A stretch of 64,000 nucleotides of DNA from Mesorhizobium sp. YIM 152430. GTDB taxonomy: Bacteria; Pseudomonadota; Alphaproteobacteria; Rhizobiales; Rhizobiaceae. Both the position numbers and the translations under genes were made by a program. Shown in pieces: positions 20,251 to 42,216 of this stretch (within the stretch, counting starts at the first letter, position 1; each line of letters begins with the position of its first letter). Location of the stretch: assembly GCF_029210365.1 (NCBI RefSeq), contig NZ_JARGES010000043.1, forward strand, positions 186,001-250,000, given 5' to 3'. Below the pieces are notes generated by a model. The model was not told where the DNA came from, ran no database searches, and saw nothing but the letters and a program-made list of their open reading frames with translations.

Positions 20251-21126
20251 TCAGTTTCGCTGGAGACGATGGCAGATCGTATCGAGCTGTTCGAGGCTCG
20301 AGTAACGAATCCTGATGTCGCCGCCACGCTGGCCGTGCGTGATCGAGACCTTCAGTCCCAGCGCGTCGGACAGGGTCTTTTCGAGTGCGATCGTATCCGC
20401 GTCCTTCTCAGGCGCATGACGTTCGGCTGTGCCATGCGCCTGCTTGACCGGCTGCTGCGCGAGCGATTCAGCCTGTCGCACCGACAGACCTTCATCGACG
20501 ATGCGCCGCGCAAGTCCGGCTGGGTCCAGTGCCGTGACGAGCGTGCGTGCATGACCCGCCGAGAGCGACCCGTCCGTAACCATCGATCGGACATGATCCG
20601 GAAGTTTCAGGAGGCGAAGCGTATTCGCCACATGGCTGCGGCTCTTGCCGATGACCTGGCCCAGATCGGCTTGGGTATACTGATGTTCATCGATAAGCTT
20701 TTGATATCCTAGCGCTTCTTCAACCGGATTGAGATCCGCGCGCTGGACGTTCTCGATGATTGCAAGTTCAAGGGCGACGCGGTCGGTCACGTCGCGGATA
20801 ACGATCGGCACAGAAGTCAATCCGGCGCGTTGCGCCGCGCGCCATCGGCGTTCGCCGGCGATGATCTCGTATCGTCCATCCGGCATCGTTCGGACTACGA
20901 CGGGCTGAACGATCCCATGCTCGCGAATCGACTGGGTCAGGTCCTCAAGATCGTCTTCGGCAAAACTGCGGCGGGGGTTGCGCGGGTTCGGTGAGACGAA
21001 TTCGATCGGCGCCGTTCGATCCGCAACAAGGTTGCCCGAAGGCGACGGGGCTGCCGGCTTGTCGAGATCGCCGATGAGCGCGGCGAGGCCGCGACCGAGC
21101 CGCTTGCGGGACAGATCCTCATTCAT
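20251..21126 (-). CDS. parB: Chromosome partitioning protein ParB
   Basis: CTP-dependent DNA clamp that loads at parS and spreads; 291 residues. The N-terminus KRLGRGLAALIGD is typical of chromosomal ParB. NPRNPRRSF leads into the ParB/Srx domain with the CTP-binding GERRWRAAQRAGL (about residues 90-102). The helix-turn-helix QADLGQVIGKSRSHVANTLRLLKLP follows, and the C-terminal dimerisation segment comes last. It is 12 bases downstream of parA, with five parS-like sites in the window, three within 4.2 kb of the locus. Confidence 0.97.
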   Translation of the reverse strand: MNEDLSRKRLGRGLAALIGDLDKPAAPSPSGNLVADRTAPIEFVSPNPRNPRRSFAEDDLEDLTQSIREHGIVQPVVVRTMPDGRYEIIAGERRWRAAQRAGLTSVPIVIRDVTDRVALELAIIENVQRADLNPVEEALGYQKLIDEHQYTQADLGQVIGKSRSHVANTLRLLKLPDHVRSMVTDGSLSAGHARTLVTALDPAGLARRIVDEGLSVRQAESLAQQPVKQAHGTAERHAPEKDADTIALEKTLSDALGLKVSITHGQRGGDIRIRYSSLEQLDTICHRLQRN

Positions 21127-21138
21127 CCAACTCTCCCT

Positions 21139-21939
21139 TTATGCGGCGCGCAGCACACGTTCACGACGGATCACTTCCGACGCAAGTTGCAGATAAGCCT
21201 GACTTCCGGAACATTTCAGATCATAAAGTATGGCCGGCTTGCCATAGGACGGGGCCTCGGAAACACGCACATTGCGCGGAATGACCGTATCGTAAACCTT
21301 GTCGCCCATATGGGTACGAACATCCTGCACGACCTGATTGGCCAGATTGTTCCGGCCGTCGAACATCGTCATCACGATACCCTGGATGGTCAGACGTGGA
21401 TTGAGGTTGGCCCGGACCTGGTCGACCGTGTGCAGCAACTGGCTCAAACCCTCGAGAGCGAAAAACTCGCACTGGAGCGGCACGAGAACCGAATCCGCTG
21501 CGGCCATGGAATTGAGCGTCAGCAAATTGAGCGATGGCGGGCAATCGATCAGGATGTAGTCGAAAAATGTTGCCCCCCCATCGGAAGATTCAATCGCGCT
21601 TCGGAGCCGAACCGCGCGATCCGGCGCAGCCGAGATCTCCATCTCGACGCCAAGAAGATCAAGCGTCGACGGCACAACCGACAAACCCGGAACCGCAGTC
21701 TTCACAGCCGACTGTGCAATGGTCGCTTCACCTATCAACAAATCGTAGGACGATATCTCACGTTCCACCCGATCGATGCCCAATCCGGTGCTCGCATTGC
21801 CCTGGGGGTCGAGGTCGACGATGAGCACCCGCTCGCCGATCGCCGCTAGGGCGGTGGCCAGATTGATCGCGGTCGTCGTCTTGCCGACACCGCCCTTCTG
21901 ATTTGCCACTGTGATGATCCGTGGCTGCGATCCCACCAT
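21139..21939 (-). CDS. parA: Chromosome partitioning ATPase ParA
   Basis: Walker-type ATPase that moves ParB-parS complexes; 266 residues. The deviant Walker A is KGGVGKTTTAINLA (residues 15-28) with both lysines. Walker A' is VLIVDLDPQGNAST, and IDCPPSLNLLTLNSM is Walker B. Its start is two bases after the rsmG stop, and it is followed by parB. Confidence 0.97.
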   Translation of the reverse strand: MVGSQPRIITVANQKGGVGKTTTAINLATALAAIGERVLIVDLDPQGNASTGLGIDRVEREISSYDLLIGEATIAQSAVKTAVPGLSVVPSTLDLLGVEMEISAAPDRAVRLRSAIESSDGGATFFDYILIDCPPSLNLLTLNSMAAADSVLVPLQCEFFALEGLSQLLHTVDQVRANLNPRLTIQGIVMTMFDGRNNLANQVVQDVRTHMGDKVYDTVIPRNVRVSEAPSYGKPAILYDLKCSGSQAYLQLASEVIRRERVLRAA

Positions 21940-21941
21940 GA

Positions 21942-22571
21942 TCAGTGCTCCAGACGCTGAACGTTGGACAATTCCAGAACGCGACTCATCGCGTCAACCA
22001 TGCTGGCATGTTCTACCAGATCAAATTGCCAATGGTCACGCGCTGCGTGAATTTCCTGTTGGAAATCGCGCCCTTTTGGAAAGAGCGCGCGGCCTCGTCC
22101 CGGCGCAAGCCACCTCTCCGTAAGTTCGAGGAGCCTTTTCAGCGGCGCCAGAGCCCGCGCCGAAACGAGAGAGGGGGTCAGGAATTCTGTGGCGGCTTCA
22201 ATGCGTTCGGACCGTATGACCACGGTTAATCCGAGCTCGACGGCGACCGAGCGAAGAAATGCCGACTTCTTCTGATTGCTCTCGACGAGCGTAGCCGTCA
22301 GTCCGGAAGGCGCTCCGAGGATGGCAATCACAAGACCTGGCAGCCCGCCGCCACTGCCAATGTCCGTCCAGTCCGATGCCGTCCCACGAAGTCGCCACAA
22401 CTGGGCCGAATCAAGAATATGACGTATCCAGAAGTCATCTTGCGCGCCGCTCGCCGCCAGATTGATCGAACGGTTCCAGCGCTGGAAGAGTTTTTCGAAA
22501 GCCAGAAGCTGTTCATAAGTTTCACGTGAAACGCCCCCCGCTACACGATTGAGAGAATCATACTGATTCAT
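21942..22571 (-). CDS. rsmG: 16S rRNA (guanine-N7) methyltransferase RsmG
   Basis: Methylates a guanine in the 530 loop of 16S rRNA (G527 in E. coli) using S-adenosylmethionine. It has 209 residues; the SAM-binding motif [12 protein letters not shown] spans residues 69-80. The start codon overlaps the mnmG stop. A parS-like site is embedded in its first 20 codons. Confidence 0.95.
22518..22533. repeat. parS-like site 2
   Basis: AGTTTCACGTGAAACG has the full 14-base palindrome GTTTCACGTGAAAC; only the outermost bases differ from consensus (14/16). It lies inside rsmG codons 13-18. Confidence 0.9.
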
Positions 22572-24448
22572 GCCGCAAGCGACGCATGTTTGCGCTGAAC
22601 ATGCGCCAGAAGGAGCGACAAAGCAGCCGGCGTCATTCCCTCGATCCGCCCAGCCTGGGCAATTGTCTGCGGACGGGCTTCGATCAATTTCGATCGCATT
22701 TCATTCGACAATCCGACGATCGCATCGATGTCCAGATCAACCGGGATCTCCAACCCTTCCTGCTTGCGCAATCGCTCGACATCGGCACCCTGACGCTGAA
22801 GATAGACCGCGTAGCTTGCGTCAATCTCGACAAGTTCGCGCGTTATCCGATCAAACTTGCGAAGTTCGGGCCAAACTCGATCGAGGTCTTCGAACCGAAT
22901 GGACGAGTTTCCCATCAGCTCATAGGCACTGCGCACCTTGCCGTCAGCATTGACGGCAAGGCCCTGCTTGATCGCGGCCGCTGACGACAATGTCAGCTCC
23001 CGCAAACGCTGCTTGAGTCCGGCCAGTCGTTCCGTTCGCGCAGCAAACATCTTCGCGCGCTCGGCGCCGACAATTCCGAACTTCAACCCAAGCGGCGTCA
23101 AACGCTCATCGGCGTTATCGGCACGAATTGACAGCCGGTATTCCGCGCGCGAAGTGAATATCCGATAGGGTTCGGTAACGCCCCGCGTGGTGAGATCATC
23201 GATCATGACACCGATATAGGCGTCGGCGCGGGACAGCGAGACGGGCTCACTGCCGCCCGCACGGATCGCGGCATTGAGGCCTGCAAGGATGCCCTGAGCC
23301 CCCGCTTCCTCGTAGCCGGTCGTGCCATTTATCTGCCCGGCCAGCAACAGGCCGCGACATGACCGCATCTCCAGGGCAGATGACAGTTCGCGCGGATCGA
23401 CATGATCATATTCGATGGCATATCCCGGTTGAACGATCTCTGCCTTATGCAAACCCTCCATCGAGCGGATGAAGTCGATCTGAACGTCCCAAGGCATCGA
23501 TGTCGAAACGCCATTCGGATAGACAAGATCGCTGTCCAGCCCCTCGGGCTCCAGAAATATCTGATGGCCGTCCCGGTCACCGAACCGGACGATCTTGTCT
23601 TCAATCGATGGACAATAGCGGGGACCGACACCCTCAATCGCGCCGCCATACATGGCCGACCTGTGCAGGTTCTCGCGGATAATGCGGTGTGAACGCTCGT
23701 TCGTTCGTGTGATGGCACATTCGATCTGCGGTATGGAGATCGAAGATGTCATGGACGAAAATGGAACCGGCACTTCGTCGGCAGCCTGACGTTCGAGCGC
23801 ATTCCATTCGATCGATTCGCGCTTGAGCCGTGGCGGTGTGCCTGTCTTCAAGCGACCGAGAGGAACGCCGAGGCGCGAAAAGGTCGACGCCAGGCCATTC
23901 GTTGCCTGTTCGCCCATGCGCCCGGCGACAATTTTGTCGGGGCCGATATGGATCAGCCCCCGAAGGAAAGTACCGGTCGTCAATACCGCAGCACCGCAGG
24001 AAATATAGCCAGCAGTCTTGAGGTGGACTCCGATGAGCTTCGCATCGTGGATATCGAGGTCCAGAACTTCATCCGCGACGAGATGAAGATTCTCCTGCGC
24101 AGCAACGAGTTCCTGGACGGCCTGTGCATAGAGTTTCCGGTCGGCTTGGGTGCGTGGGCCGCGAACGGCCGGGCCCTTGCTGCGATTCAACAGTCGGAAC
24201 TGAATGCCGGCCTTGTCGGCTGCGCGGCCCATGATTCCGTCGAGCGCATCGATTTCCCGCACCAACTGGCCTTTCCCAAGCCCCCCGATCGCGGGATTGC
24301 AGGACATGATGCCGAGATTATCGGCGCTCAGCGTCACCAGCGCAGTGACTGCGCCCATACGTGCGGACGCGCAGGCAGCTTCAACACCGGCATGACCGCC
24401 CCCAACGACGACGACATCGAATTTGGAGTGCTGTTTCACGTGAGTCAT
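22568..24448 (-). CDS. mnmG: tRNA 5-carboxymethylaminomethyl-U34 modification enzyme MnmG
   Basis: With MnmE it builds the (carboxymethyl)aminomethyl group at wobble uridine 34. It has 626 residues. The FAD-binding [21 protein letters not shown] is at residues 11-31. [22 protein letters not shown] follows, with the catalytic-region cysteine. The C-terminal helical domain recruits MnmE. The start overlaps the mnmE stop (ATGA). A parS-like site covers its first codons. Confidence 0.97.
24432..24447. repeat. parS-like site 3
   Basis: TGTTTCACGTGAGTCA matches parS at 14 of 16 positions. It lies across the first codons of mnmG. Confidence 0.75.
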
Positions 24449-27234: not shown

Positions 27235-27765
27235 TCAGAACGGCTTTACCACGACCAGGATGACGATGACAATCATCAACAGCGTCGGCCCCTCGTTCAT
27301 GAGACGCCAGTGCCGTGCCGACTTCTGGTTGCGGTCCTCGGCGAAGAGACGCACGGCCTTGGAAAAATAGCCGTGCAGTCCCGACATGGCGACGACGAGA
27401 ACGATCTTCAAGTGCAGCCAGCCGCCTGAAAAGCCGAAGCCCTGCCAGGCGAGCCACAGGCCCATAACCCAGGCAACCGTCATCGCCGGATTGATGATGG
27501 CGCGCAATAGGCGTTGTTCCATCACCTTGAACGTCTCGGATTGCGGCGTTCCGGGGCCGATTTCGGCGTGATACACGAAGAGCCGCGGCAGGTAGAGCAT
27601 CCCCGCCATCCAGGAGACGACGGCGATCACATGGATCGCCTTGGCCCACAGATACGCCTCGGCCGGAAAGAGAAAAAGCGCAGCCGCGGTCAGGGCGAGG
27701 AAGATGGCAAGCGCAATGCCCGCACGCCTGCCGGGGCCCGTGCTGTTCGCGTTCGTGCGGCTCAC
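27235..27765 (-). CDS. hemJ: Protoporphyrinogen IX oxidase HemJ
   Basis: Membrane enzyme converting protoporphyrinogen IX to protoporphyrin IX, the alternative to HemG and HemY. It has 176 residues with about four membrane segments. [26 protein letters not shown] holds the key histidine (about residue 45) and the W-x-G-x-L-Y-LPRLF signature, and LHLKIVLV and RHWRLMNE follow. The start is a GTG whose bases overlap the hemE stop, so the two heme genes are coupled. The N-terminal 15 residues are polar and longer than in some relatives. Confidence 0.93.
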
Positions 27766-28793
27766 TGCCTCGCTCCCCGAACCTGCGCGATCATCGCCTC
27801 GACATGCGCGATCGGCGTTTGCGGCGTGATGCCGTGGCCGAGATTGAAGATCAGCGGCCCGTCGCCGAGATTGTCGAGAATGGCCTTCACACCGTCATGA
27901 AGCGCGTCACCGCCCACGACGAGCCGCAACGGGTCCAGATTGCCCTGCACGGCGCCTTCGGCCTGCAAGCGCTGCGCCTGGCTCCAGGGAACGCTCCAGT
28001 CGAGACCGAGTGCCGTGACGCCCGTCTTGGCACGATACCCGTCATAAAGCGCCCCTGCACCCTTCGGGAAACCGATGATCGGCACGTTTGGATGAACGGC
28101 GCGAACCTTGTTCACGATCTGCTTCATCGGCTGAATGCAGTAAGCCTCGAAAGACGTTTCGTCGAGCACGCCGGACCAGGAATCGAAAATCTGAACGCAA
28201 TCCGCACCCGCTTCGATCTGGCGGATGAGATAGTCAGCCGAGCAATCTGCCAGAAGCGCCAGCAGCTTTCGCATTTCGGTGGAGTGCCGGTAGCCGAACA
28301 TGCGCGCCGGCGCCTGGTCTGGGGTGCCATGTCCGGCGATCATGTAGGTCGCCACTGTCCAGGGCGCGCCGCAAAAGCCGATCAGCGTCGTTTCGGTCGG
28401 CAGTTCGGAGCGAAGGCGCCGTACCGTCTCAAAGACCGGCGCGAGATGATCGTGGATGCGAGACGCGTCGAGCCGCTCGACCTCGTCGGCCGCGATCGGC
28501 GTCATTAGCGGGCCGCGCCCCTCCTCGAAGCGCAGATCGCGTCCGAGCGCATGGGGTATGACGAGAATGTCGGAGAACAGGATCGATGCGTCGAAGCCGA
28601 ACCGGCGGATCGGCTGAAGCGTCACTTCGACGGCGAGATCTGGATTGTAGCAAAGGTCGAGAAAACTCCCCGCCGCTTTGCGCGTTTCCCGATACTCGGG
28701 CAGGTAGCGTCCCGCCTGCCGCATCATCCAGATCGGAGGCGGAAAGACGCTTTCTCCCTGCAAGACCTTCAGCATCTTCCGTTCGATCGACAT
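27762..28793 (-). CDS. hemE: Uroporphyrinogen decarboxylase
   Basis: Decarboxylates the four acetate groups of uroporphyrinogen III. It has 343 residues. The N-terminus [20 protein letters not shown] is the family signature with substrate-binding arginines. [15 protein letters not shown] is the second signature, and [11 protein letters not shown] is at the C-terminus. Start at the ATG at 28793 (MSIERKML); the frame stays open far upstream but without similarity. In alphaproteobacteria hemE flanks the replication origin, and the strand switch here fits that. Confidence 0.96.
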
Positions 28794-29196
28794 TCGCGGC
28801 CTTTCCGTCGAGCCCCTTAAGAAATTAAAGAAATTTTTAAGGAGTCTTATGGTTCTTAGAGTCTGTTGGAATCGGGGTTTCCCGCTTCTCCCCGAACGTG
28901 TGCGCGTCGGCCAGTGGTTATATCGCCGCAAGGCGAATTGCGAAACCTGTTGACGATCAACGGGGATCGTCGCGATTCGCGGTTTTGTATCAATGCCTTG
29001 AGCCCGCCCGATCCGGCCTAGCTTCGTCCTCGGCGCGTGCAGGACAAGGCCACGCCCCCCGCAATTTCCCACAGGCTCGATTCCGGCCCACAGTTTGGCG
29101 AATTGTGGAGAAACCGCCATCTGATACATTGGCCCGCGAACGGCCCTGCCGCTCTCCCGCTTTATGCACAGTCGCCCACAGGGCAGGCAGAATCCC
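28794..29196. other. oriC: Candidate chromosomal replication origin (hemE-ppsR gap)
   Basis: A 403-bp gene-free gap where genes switch from leftward to rightward. It contains a perfect DnaA-type 9-mer TTATGCACA (29162-29170), a minus-strand TTCTCCACA (29104-29112, one mismatch to TTATCCACA) and weaker relatives such as TTTCCCACA (29065-29073). An AT-rich imperfect palindrome of 28 bp lies at 28815-28842. Four GANTC methylation sites fall at 28842, 28859, 28974 and 29079. In Caulobacter and Rickettsia the origin lies in this same hemE neighbourhood. Leftward hemE and rightward ppsR promoters must also lie here. Confidence 0.7.
28815..28842. repeat. AT-rich imperfect palindrome beside hemE
   Basis: CCTTAAGAAATT-AAAG-AAATTTTTAAGG pairs at 10 of 12 positions. 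It stands out in GC-rich DNA. It may be the easily melted part of the origin or an operator over the hemE promoter. Confidence 0.5.
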
Positions 29197-30030
29197 GTGA
29201 ACAAACCGCAGAATTTCTTCCATCTCCACCTCATCTCGGATGCGACCGGCGAAACGCTGCTCGCGGCGGGGCGGGCGGCGGCGGCCCAATACAAGAACGC
29301 GCGCGCGATCGAGCACATCTATCCGCTGATCCGAACCGACAAGCAGCTCGAAAACGTCTTCGTCGATATCGAGGAAGCGCCGGGAATCGTGCTCTATACG
29401 GTCGTCGATCAGGCGCTGGCTGCCGAGATTGACCGACGCTCCCAGGCGCTCGGCCTGCCCTGCGTCTCGGTTCTCGAGCCCGTTCTGATGGTCTTCCAGT
29501 CCTATCTCGGGACGCCGGCCGGCCGCCGCGTCGGCGCGCAGCATGTCCTCGACGCTGATTATTTCCGCCGCATCGACGCGCTCAACTTCACCATGGAGCA
29601 TGATGACGGCCAGTTGCCGCCGGACATCGAGGAAGCCGACATCGTGTTGATCGGCATCTCGCGCACCTCGAAGACGCCGACCTCGATCTATCTCGCAAAT
29701 CGCGGCATCAAGACGGCGAACGTGCCGATCGTCATCGGCGTGCCGATCCCGCCGCAGATCGTAACGGCCAAGAAGCCGCTGGTCGTCGGCCTGATCGCGA
29801 CGGCGGAACGGATTTCGCAAGTCCGCCAGAACCGCGTGCTCGGCGGGACCGGCTTCAACCATGGCGACTATGTCGACCGGCTTTCGATTTCCGAAGAACT
29901 GGCCTATGCCCGTCAGATCTGCAACCGGCATGGCTGGCCAATGATCGACGTCACCCGGCGCTCGATCGAGGAAACCGCAGCCGCCATCGTCGCGTTGCGT
30001 AACAAGACCCATCGCGAGGAGGCGTTGTGA
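29197..30030 (+). CDS. ppsR: PEP synthetase regulatory kinase/pyrophosphorylase (DUF299)
   Basis: ADP-dependent kinase and phosphate-dependent phosphorylase. In E. coli it switches PEP synthase; in alphaproteobacteria the target is probably pyruvate phosphate dikinase. It has 277 residues; the N-terminus [15 protein letters not shown] is invariant in the family and the P-loop-like [11 protein letters not shown] is at about 153-163. GTG at 29197 gives the family N-terminus; an in-frame ATG at 29164 would add 11 residues. First rightward gene beyond the putative origin, equivalent to the conserved origin-side gene in Caulobacter and Rickettsia. Confidence 0.93.
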
Positions 30031-41566: not shown

Positions 41567-42216
41567 TGCGGGTCGCGATCATCGATTACGGATCGGGCAA
41601 TCTGCGCTCGGCGACCAAGGCTTTCGAGCGCGCCGCGCGCGAGGGCGGCACGAATGCGCAGATCGAACTGACGGACGATGCGGAGCGTGTCGAATCGGCG
41701 GATCGGATCGTGCTGCCGGGCGTCGGCGCCTATGCCGACTGCCGCCGCGGGCTCGACGCCGTGCCAGGCATGGTCGAGGCGCTGATGGAGGCGGTCATCG
41801 CCAAGGGGCGGCCGTTTCTCGGCATTTGCGTCGGGATGCAGCTTCTCTCGACGCGAGGGCTGGAGAAGACGACCACGCATGGGCTTGGCTGGATAGCCGG
41901 TGACGTCAAGGAAATGGAACCGGCCGACCCGGCGCTGAAGATCCCGCAGATCGGCTGGAACACGATTCACGTGAAACAGGGCCACCCGCTCTTCGCCGGC
42001 ATTGCGACAGGCGAAGGGGGATTGCACGCCTATTTCGTCCACTCCTACCAGCTTGCCGCCGAAAACCCGGCGCATGTGCTGGCGACGACCGACTATGGCG
42101 GGCCGGTCACCGCCGCCGTTGGCCGCGACAACATCGCCGGCACGCAGTTCCATCCCGAAAAGAGCCAGGCGCTGGGCCTGGCTTTGATCGCGAATTTCCT
42201 GAAGTGGAAGCCATGA
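41566..42216 (+). CDS. hisH: Imidazole glycerol phosphate synthase glutaminase HisH
   Basis: Releases ammonia from glutamine for HisF. It has 216 residues; the class I amidotransferase triad is visible: GICVGMQLL (nucleophilic cysteine, about 88), FHPEKS near the C-terminus (histidine and glutamate). A parS-like sequence lies inside it at 41963-41978. Confidence 0.96.
41963..41978. repeat. parS-like site 4 (inside hisH)
   Basis: CGATTCACGTGAAACA keeps TTCACGTGAA and matches the consensus at 14 of 16 positions. It lies about 20 kb from parAB and 13 kb on the other side of the putative origin. Confidence 0.65.

Follow-up and report, generated by a model that had tools for sequence, protein, structure and literature searches.

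The oriC of Sinorhizobium meliloti is said, on the word of Sibley et al. 2006 (cited in PMC4414408), to be a hemE-type origin. In Sphingopyxis granuli, too, oriC lies near hemE, an arrangement that, in keeping with Brassinga et al., most of the Sphingomonadaceae listed in DoriC share, and in this family the gap equivalent to the one analysed here is the predicted origin (PMC4741004, which also cites the work on the Caulobacter and Rickettsia origins). The Caulobacter Cori carries five CtrA sites, G- and W-boxes and the non-coding RNA CcnA (PMC8959179, PMC4285127); the S. meliloti oriC has no CtrA motif (PMC4433202). As to the opening of the strands, the basal unwinding system (BUS), known from Bacillus subtilis and from other bacteria, has been defined by a published rule that demands a DnaA box, a spacer of 0-16 bases and three or more NAN triplets, a single box being allowed at most two mismatches (PMC8287927), and in B. 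subtilis the DnaA residue N187 contacts the trio adenine (PMC10721633).

Here, we have analysed a window of 64 kb (bases 186001-250000 of a 585-kb contig) from the draft genome, 3.83 Mb in 60 contigs, of a member of the Rhizobiales that stands close to Aliihoeflea and whose HemE is matched best by Aliihoeflea (91%), then by Mesorhizobium, Aminobacter and others in the genome collection. An earlier note on this DNA had proposed that the gap between hemE and ppsR is the origin of the main chromosome, and it had placed the gap correctly: the two genes diverge from an interval of 403 bp that holds no annotated-type genes (Table 1). The gap has a median length of 404 bp in the 92 loci that possess both hemE and ppsR, and the GTG start of ppsR is conserved among relatives. 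The leftward genes are, in order, parB, parA, rsmG, mnmG, mnmE, rho, a hemJ-like gene and hemE, and the rightward ones ppsR, maf, aroE, coaE and dnaQ; Pfam was used to check the domains of parB, parA, mnmG, rho, the hemJ-like gene, hemE, ppsR and maf, and the names of rsmG, mnmE, aroE, coaE and dnaQ come from the ORF translations. The same genome has a repC gene on contig C25, so a second replicon, located outside the window, is likely.

Table 1. Features in and around the hemE-ppsR gap (window coordinates)
Feature	Position	Strand	Basis or remark
parB and parA	20251..21939	-	Pfam; 8 kb from the gap
parS-like site AGTTTCACGTGAAACG	22518..22533	.	parS search
parS-like site TGTTTCACGTGAGTCA	24432..24447	.	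parS search
hemE, uroporphyrinogen decarboxylase	27762..28793	-	Pfam URO-D 5.2e-114; starts at 28793
Candidate oriC, entire hemE-ppsR intergenic gap	28794..29196	.	gene calls; gap length in relatives
AT-rich palindromic stretch, likely duplex unwinding element (DUE)	28815..28842	.	low stability
Four DnaA-trio-like triplets AAG AAC CAT AAG	28846..28857	-	conserved middle A
Six-base spacer GACTCT	28858..28863	-	contains GANTC at 28859-28863
Degenerate DnaA box ATTCCAACA	28864..28872	-	4 mismatches in this genome
IHF consensus match TATCAATGCCTTG, uncertain	28989..29001	+	consensus match in just 7% of relatives
DnaA box TTTCCCACA	29065..29073	+	2 mismatches
Weak DnaA box CGGCCCACA	29084..29092	+	CCCACA core
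DnaA box TTCTCCACA	29104..29112	-	1 mismatch; inside the most conserved box block, ATTGTGGA
DnaA box TTATGCACA	29162..29170	+	exact
Weak DnaA box TCGCCCACA	29172..29180	+	CCCACA core; kept as CCACAG/CAACAG
ppsR, kinase/pyrophosphorylase, RP001-type	29197..30030	+	Pfam Kinase-PPPase 6.6e-87; GTG start at 29197
parS-like site CGATTCACGTGAAACA	41963..41978	.	parS search

This gap resembles the hemE-type origins of Caulobacter (Cori), Rickettsia, Sphingopyxis and S. meliloti in its gene neighbours, its several DnaA boxes, its AT-rich stretch and the par genes nearby. It is like S. meliloti, and unlike the Caulobacter Cori, in that a search of the gap for CtrA sites (TTAA-N7-TTAA) returned none; an Rfam scan of the gap gave nothing real, and thus a CcnA-like RNA was not found by that route. 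Judged from its sequence, the gap is very probably the DnaA-dependent oriC of the main chromosome, and this is supported by the flanking genes, the box cluster, the AT-rich stretch, parAB with parS, conservation across the family and the skew switch of a complete relative. Given the precedent of oriC at hemE, the earlier note's reading was right and was to be expected. DnaA binding, the direction of opening and the origin activity of the gap are what we infer from these features.

The evidence on the position of the origin is as follows: (i) The DnaA boxes are clustered. The perfect box, the near-box on the other strand and the weaker relatives that had been claimed are all present: TTATGCACA at 29162 is an exact TTATNCACA, of which the window has no other and the genome 11 in all, TTCTCCACA at 29104 differs from this motif by a single base, and the weaker relatives comprise TTTCCCACA (29065) as well as the CCACA cores of 29088 and 29176. 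Among 5000 dinucleotide-shuffled versions of the gap, an exact box had P=0.003 and four CCACA cores P=0.0004, and two boxes within one mismatch were never obtained (0/5000). With a relaxed box pattern the gap is the densest DnaA-box cluster on the contig, whereas boxes with at most one mismatch occur at chance level over the whole window (8 seen vs 8.15 expected); the signal is one of clustering, not of window-wide abundance. (ii) The parS-like sites surround the gap. A search of the whole genome with TGTTTCACGTGAAACA, allowing two mismatches, found three sites, all on this contig and within 13 kb of the gap (6.3 and 4.3 kb to the left, 12.8 kb to the right), and the reversed pattern, used as a control, found none. 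If the origin were elsewhere, either at dnaA on the separate contig C10 or at a local skew minimum some 41 kb left of the gap, it would have to be reconciled with the lack of any parS-like site beyond 26 kb around the gap; moreover, dnaA has no box cluster beside it, with two weak boxes in 3.5 kb. (iii) The skew of the contig itself, taken in stretches, is ambiguous in this draft: the cumulative GC-skew curve makes several turns and has no clean global shape, and its local minimum at 173.9 kb of the contig, 41 kb left of the gap, is the observation that favours an origin outside the gap. The KOPS-like GGGNAGGG, however, is distributed 11+/16- to the left of the gap and 29+/14- to its right, the pattern expected with the origin between. 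The relatives were sampled at points. In the complete relative G019 (3.78-Mb contig) nearly all skew samples are negative to the left of the orthologous gap and nearly all positive to its right, the change falling within 1.52-1.58 Mb, where the gap lies at 1.549 Mb, with GGGNAGGG polarity in agreement, which again speaks against an origin elsewhere. G055 points the same way, since its gap is at 3.77 Mb and its GGGNAGGG polarity reverses on the opposite side, at ~1.4-1.6 Mb; G258 does not, its skew being blurred around the gap and changing somewhere in 0.9-1.6 Mb, with the gap at 0.91 Mb. We consider an origin outside the gap extremely improbable.

Alignment of 85 distinct gaps, drawn from relatives that are not independent samples, revealed three conserved zones: a block on the hemE side (28843-28880), the ATTGTGGA block (29101-29111) and the two boxes on the ppsR side. 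Conservation is highest in the hemE-side block, above that of the DnaA boxes. The features described in the earlier note were borne out, but the best conserved part of the gap had been overlooked. Read 5'-3' on the minus strand, this block consists of ATTCCAACA GACTCT AAG AAC CAT AAG, followed by the AT-rich stretch; the middle A of each triplet (28856, 28853, 28850 and 28847) is conserved at 0.99-1.00, and the first and third positions are more variable. An exact 15-mer of the block was found in just 3 of 199 genomes across the order, too strict a criterion, and we therefore searched with a weight matrix, which placed the block ~52 bp from hemE in 74 loci of a family set of 80, roughly one from each genus, with a score above the best shuffled one, the matrix having been built from the first alignment and sharing some genera with the 80-locus set. 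As literal text, the block sequence had no relevant match in papers. We also noted that the block is kept, with ppsR unmatched in the stretch examined, at L135, L235, L245 and L248-L255, including Aurantimonas, and that L135 (Aurantimonas) matches the L093 locus. A record titled 'Bacillus subtilis strain SK6B4' (L092) contains a rhizobial hemE-oriC-ppsR locus (hemE 71%) and is probably mislabelled or contaminated.

A block lying ~50 bp upstream of hemE, at a promoter-like distance, and containing GANTC could also be the hemE promoter, perhaps controlled by GcrA/CcrM through that site, and the gap a mere divergent hemE/ppsR promoter region. This would leave the box clustering, parS and the skew unexplained, and a search for a sigma-70-like promoter found none. 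Importantly, hemE and the block can be separated: in three genomes (G277, G281 and G283, loci L327, L326 and L325) hemE is absent from the locus and the block, the boxes and ppsR remain at the usual spacing, and hemE copies distant from ppsR (L240, L052 and L090, and second copies at L049 and L077) lack the block. Since it stays with the boxes and ppsR without hemE, and a moved hemE goes without it, the block is not the hemE promoter; as far as sequence comparison can tell, it travels with the origin and not with hemE. The decoupled genomes have already largely refuted the promoter reading, which we regard as very unlikely. Two of the hemE-less loci (L326 and L327) have a rho reading frame on their left side, and one relative carries a second, divergent hemE copy (G234:C1:2011928-2012968, 48% identity). 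At the other end of the gap, a conserved ATTGTGGA...GCCATCTGATACA(G/T)T at 29101-29131 may serve as a promoter for ppsR that overlaps with a DnaA box; if so, DnaA could control ppsR.

With the block assigned to the origin, its layout can be compared with that of the BUS, which it equals in the order and strand sense of its parts: box, short spacer, NAN triplets and melting DNA (PMC8287927, PMC10721633). Set against the published rule, the spacer of six bases falls within the 0-16 allowed and AAG AAC CAT AAG supplies the triplets, but the box has four mismatches where two are the limit; for this reason we call the element BUS-like and not a member of the BUS class. Across the family, the 9-mer at the box position has on average 3.6 mismatches to TTATCCACA, compared with 6.8 in control 9-mers, and none of the other offsets tested was as low. 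In 14 of the 74 family loci this position holds a box with at most two mismatches; one of these, L262, has the perfect TTATCCACA, and CTATCCACC occurs there in several other loci. The sister families of the order have at this place layouts such as TTTCCCACA-GCC-TAATAATAGAAATACTAAGAA: a box set apart by 2-8 bases from three or more NAN triplets was found in 27 of 52 loci, compared with 1-5 in ten shuffles, the box being mostly of the TAATCCACC/TTTCCCACA type, with a spacer of 2-4 bases and 3-7 triplets. These comparisons suggest that the hemE end of the gap is likely to be a BUS-like opening site. The element differs from the B. subtilis BUS in the GANTC site of its spacer and in the DnaA that would act on it, which in this genome (L116:952-2535, minus) has W, A, I, K and E at the positions of N187, I190, I193, R202 and E228, the B. 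subtilis residues that capture bases of the trio (alignment to 8btg_A). With N187 replaced by W, a shared mechanism would have to rely on a different molecular contact.

In the mechanism that we propose, DnaA would bind the boxes arrayed towards ppsR (29065-29180), and opening would most likely begin at the hemE end, where DnaA on the degenerate box (28872-28864, minus strand) would polymerise over the six-base spacer onto the middle-A triplets (28857-28846) and would thereby stretch the DNA and part its strands at the adjoining AT-rich stretch (28842-28815). The AT-rich palindrome of the earlier note has been confirmed in this stretch (CCTTAA...TTAAGG), and the lowest-stability 50 bp of the window, calculated from nearest-neighbour energies, starts at 28817, in the palindrome region. 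Elsewhere in the gap we observed a mid-gap inverted repeat, CCTGTTGACGATCAACGGGG (28941-28960), and terminator-like stems at 28964-28983. An oriC at this very place could also be opened in another way, with the block bound by a different conserved factor and the AT-rich stretch unwound by an IHF loop-back: the IHF consensus at 28989 has P=0.008 in dinucleotide shuffles, the box is degenerate here and DnaA has the N187 change. This consensus is nevertheless conserved so poorly among relatives (Table 1) that we do not rely on it, and neither the period-3 conserved adenines, nor the perfect box of L262, nor the textbook box-spacer-triplet layouts of the sister families are in keeping with a different factor; we therefore hold this alternative to be unlikely.

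Opening by DnaA from the BUS-like element brings the GANTC in its spacer, a target of CcrM methylation, into consideration. Of the 74 family loci, 96% have a spacer that starts with GANTC; the N is C in 43 and G in 28, and the other four bases are fixed. The spacers of other families have no GANTC at that place, those of the sister families in the order being plain and often GCC. Six GANTC sites lie in the gap, vs 0.69 expected from the contig rate, and just 0.03% of contig windows have as many; in the gaps of relatives the mean is 4.8, vs 2.0 in shuffles. The genome encodes a RAMA-domain protein, a domain that in the control set occurred in Caulobacter only, and which is presumably CcrM. We found no literature linking CcrM and DnaA-trios at oriC in a search that took in few subscription journals. 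Tentatively, and with a probability that we put well below even, we suggest that in the family of Mesorhizobium, Brucella, Rhizobium and Agrobacterium the unwinding element may have gained a GANTC between box and triplets, such that the methylation state after replication would directly gate DnaA assembly and re-firing.

As an origin, this locus is what was expected; what the analysis adds is a defined, likely unwinding element for the origins of Rhizobiales. The GANTC in the spacer is the only potentially new point, the remainder being ordinary. Rhizobiales origins are without CtrA sites, and here a GANTC occupies a position at which methylation could affect the assembly of DnaA. If true, methylation gating would represent a SeqA-free way of limiting initiation to once per cycle.
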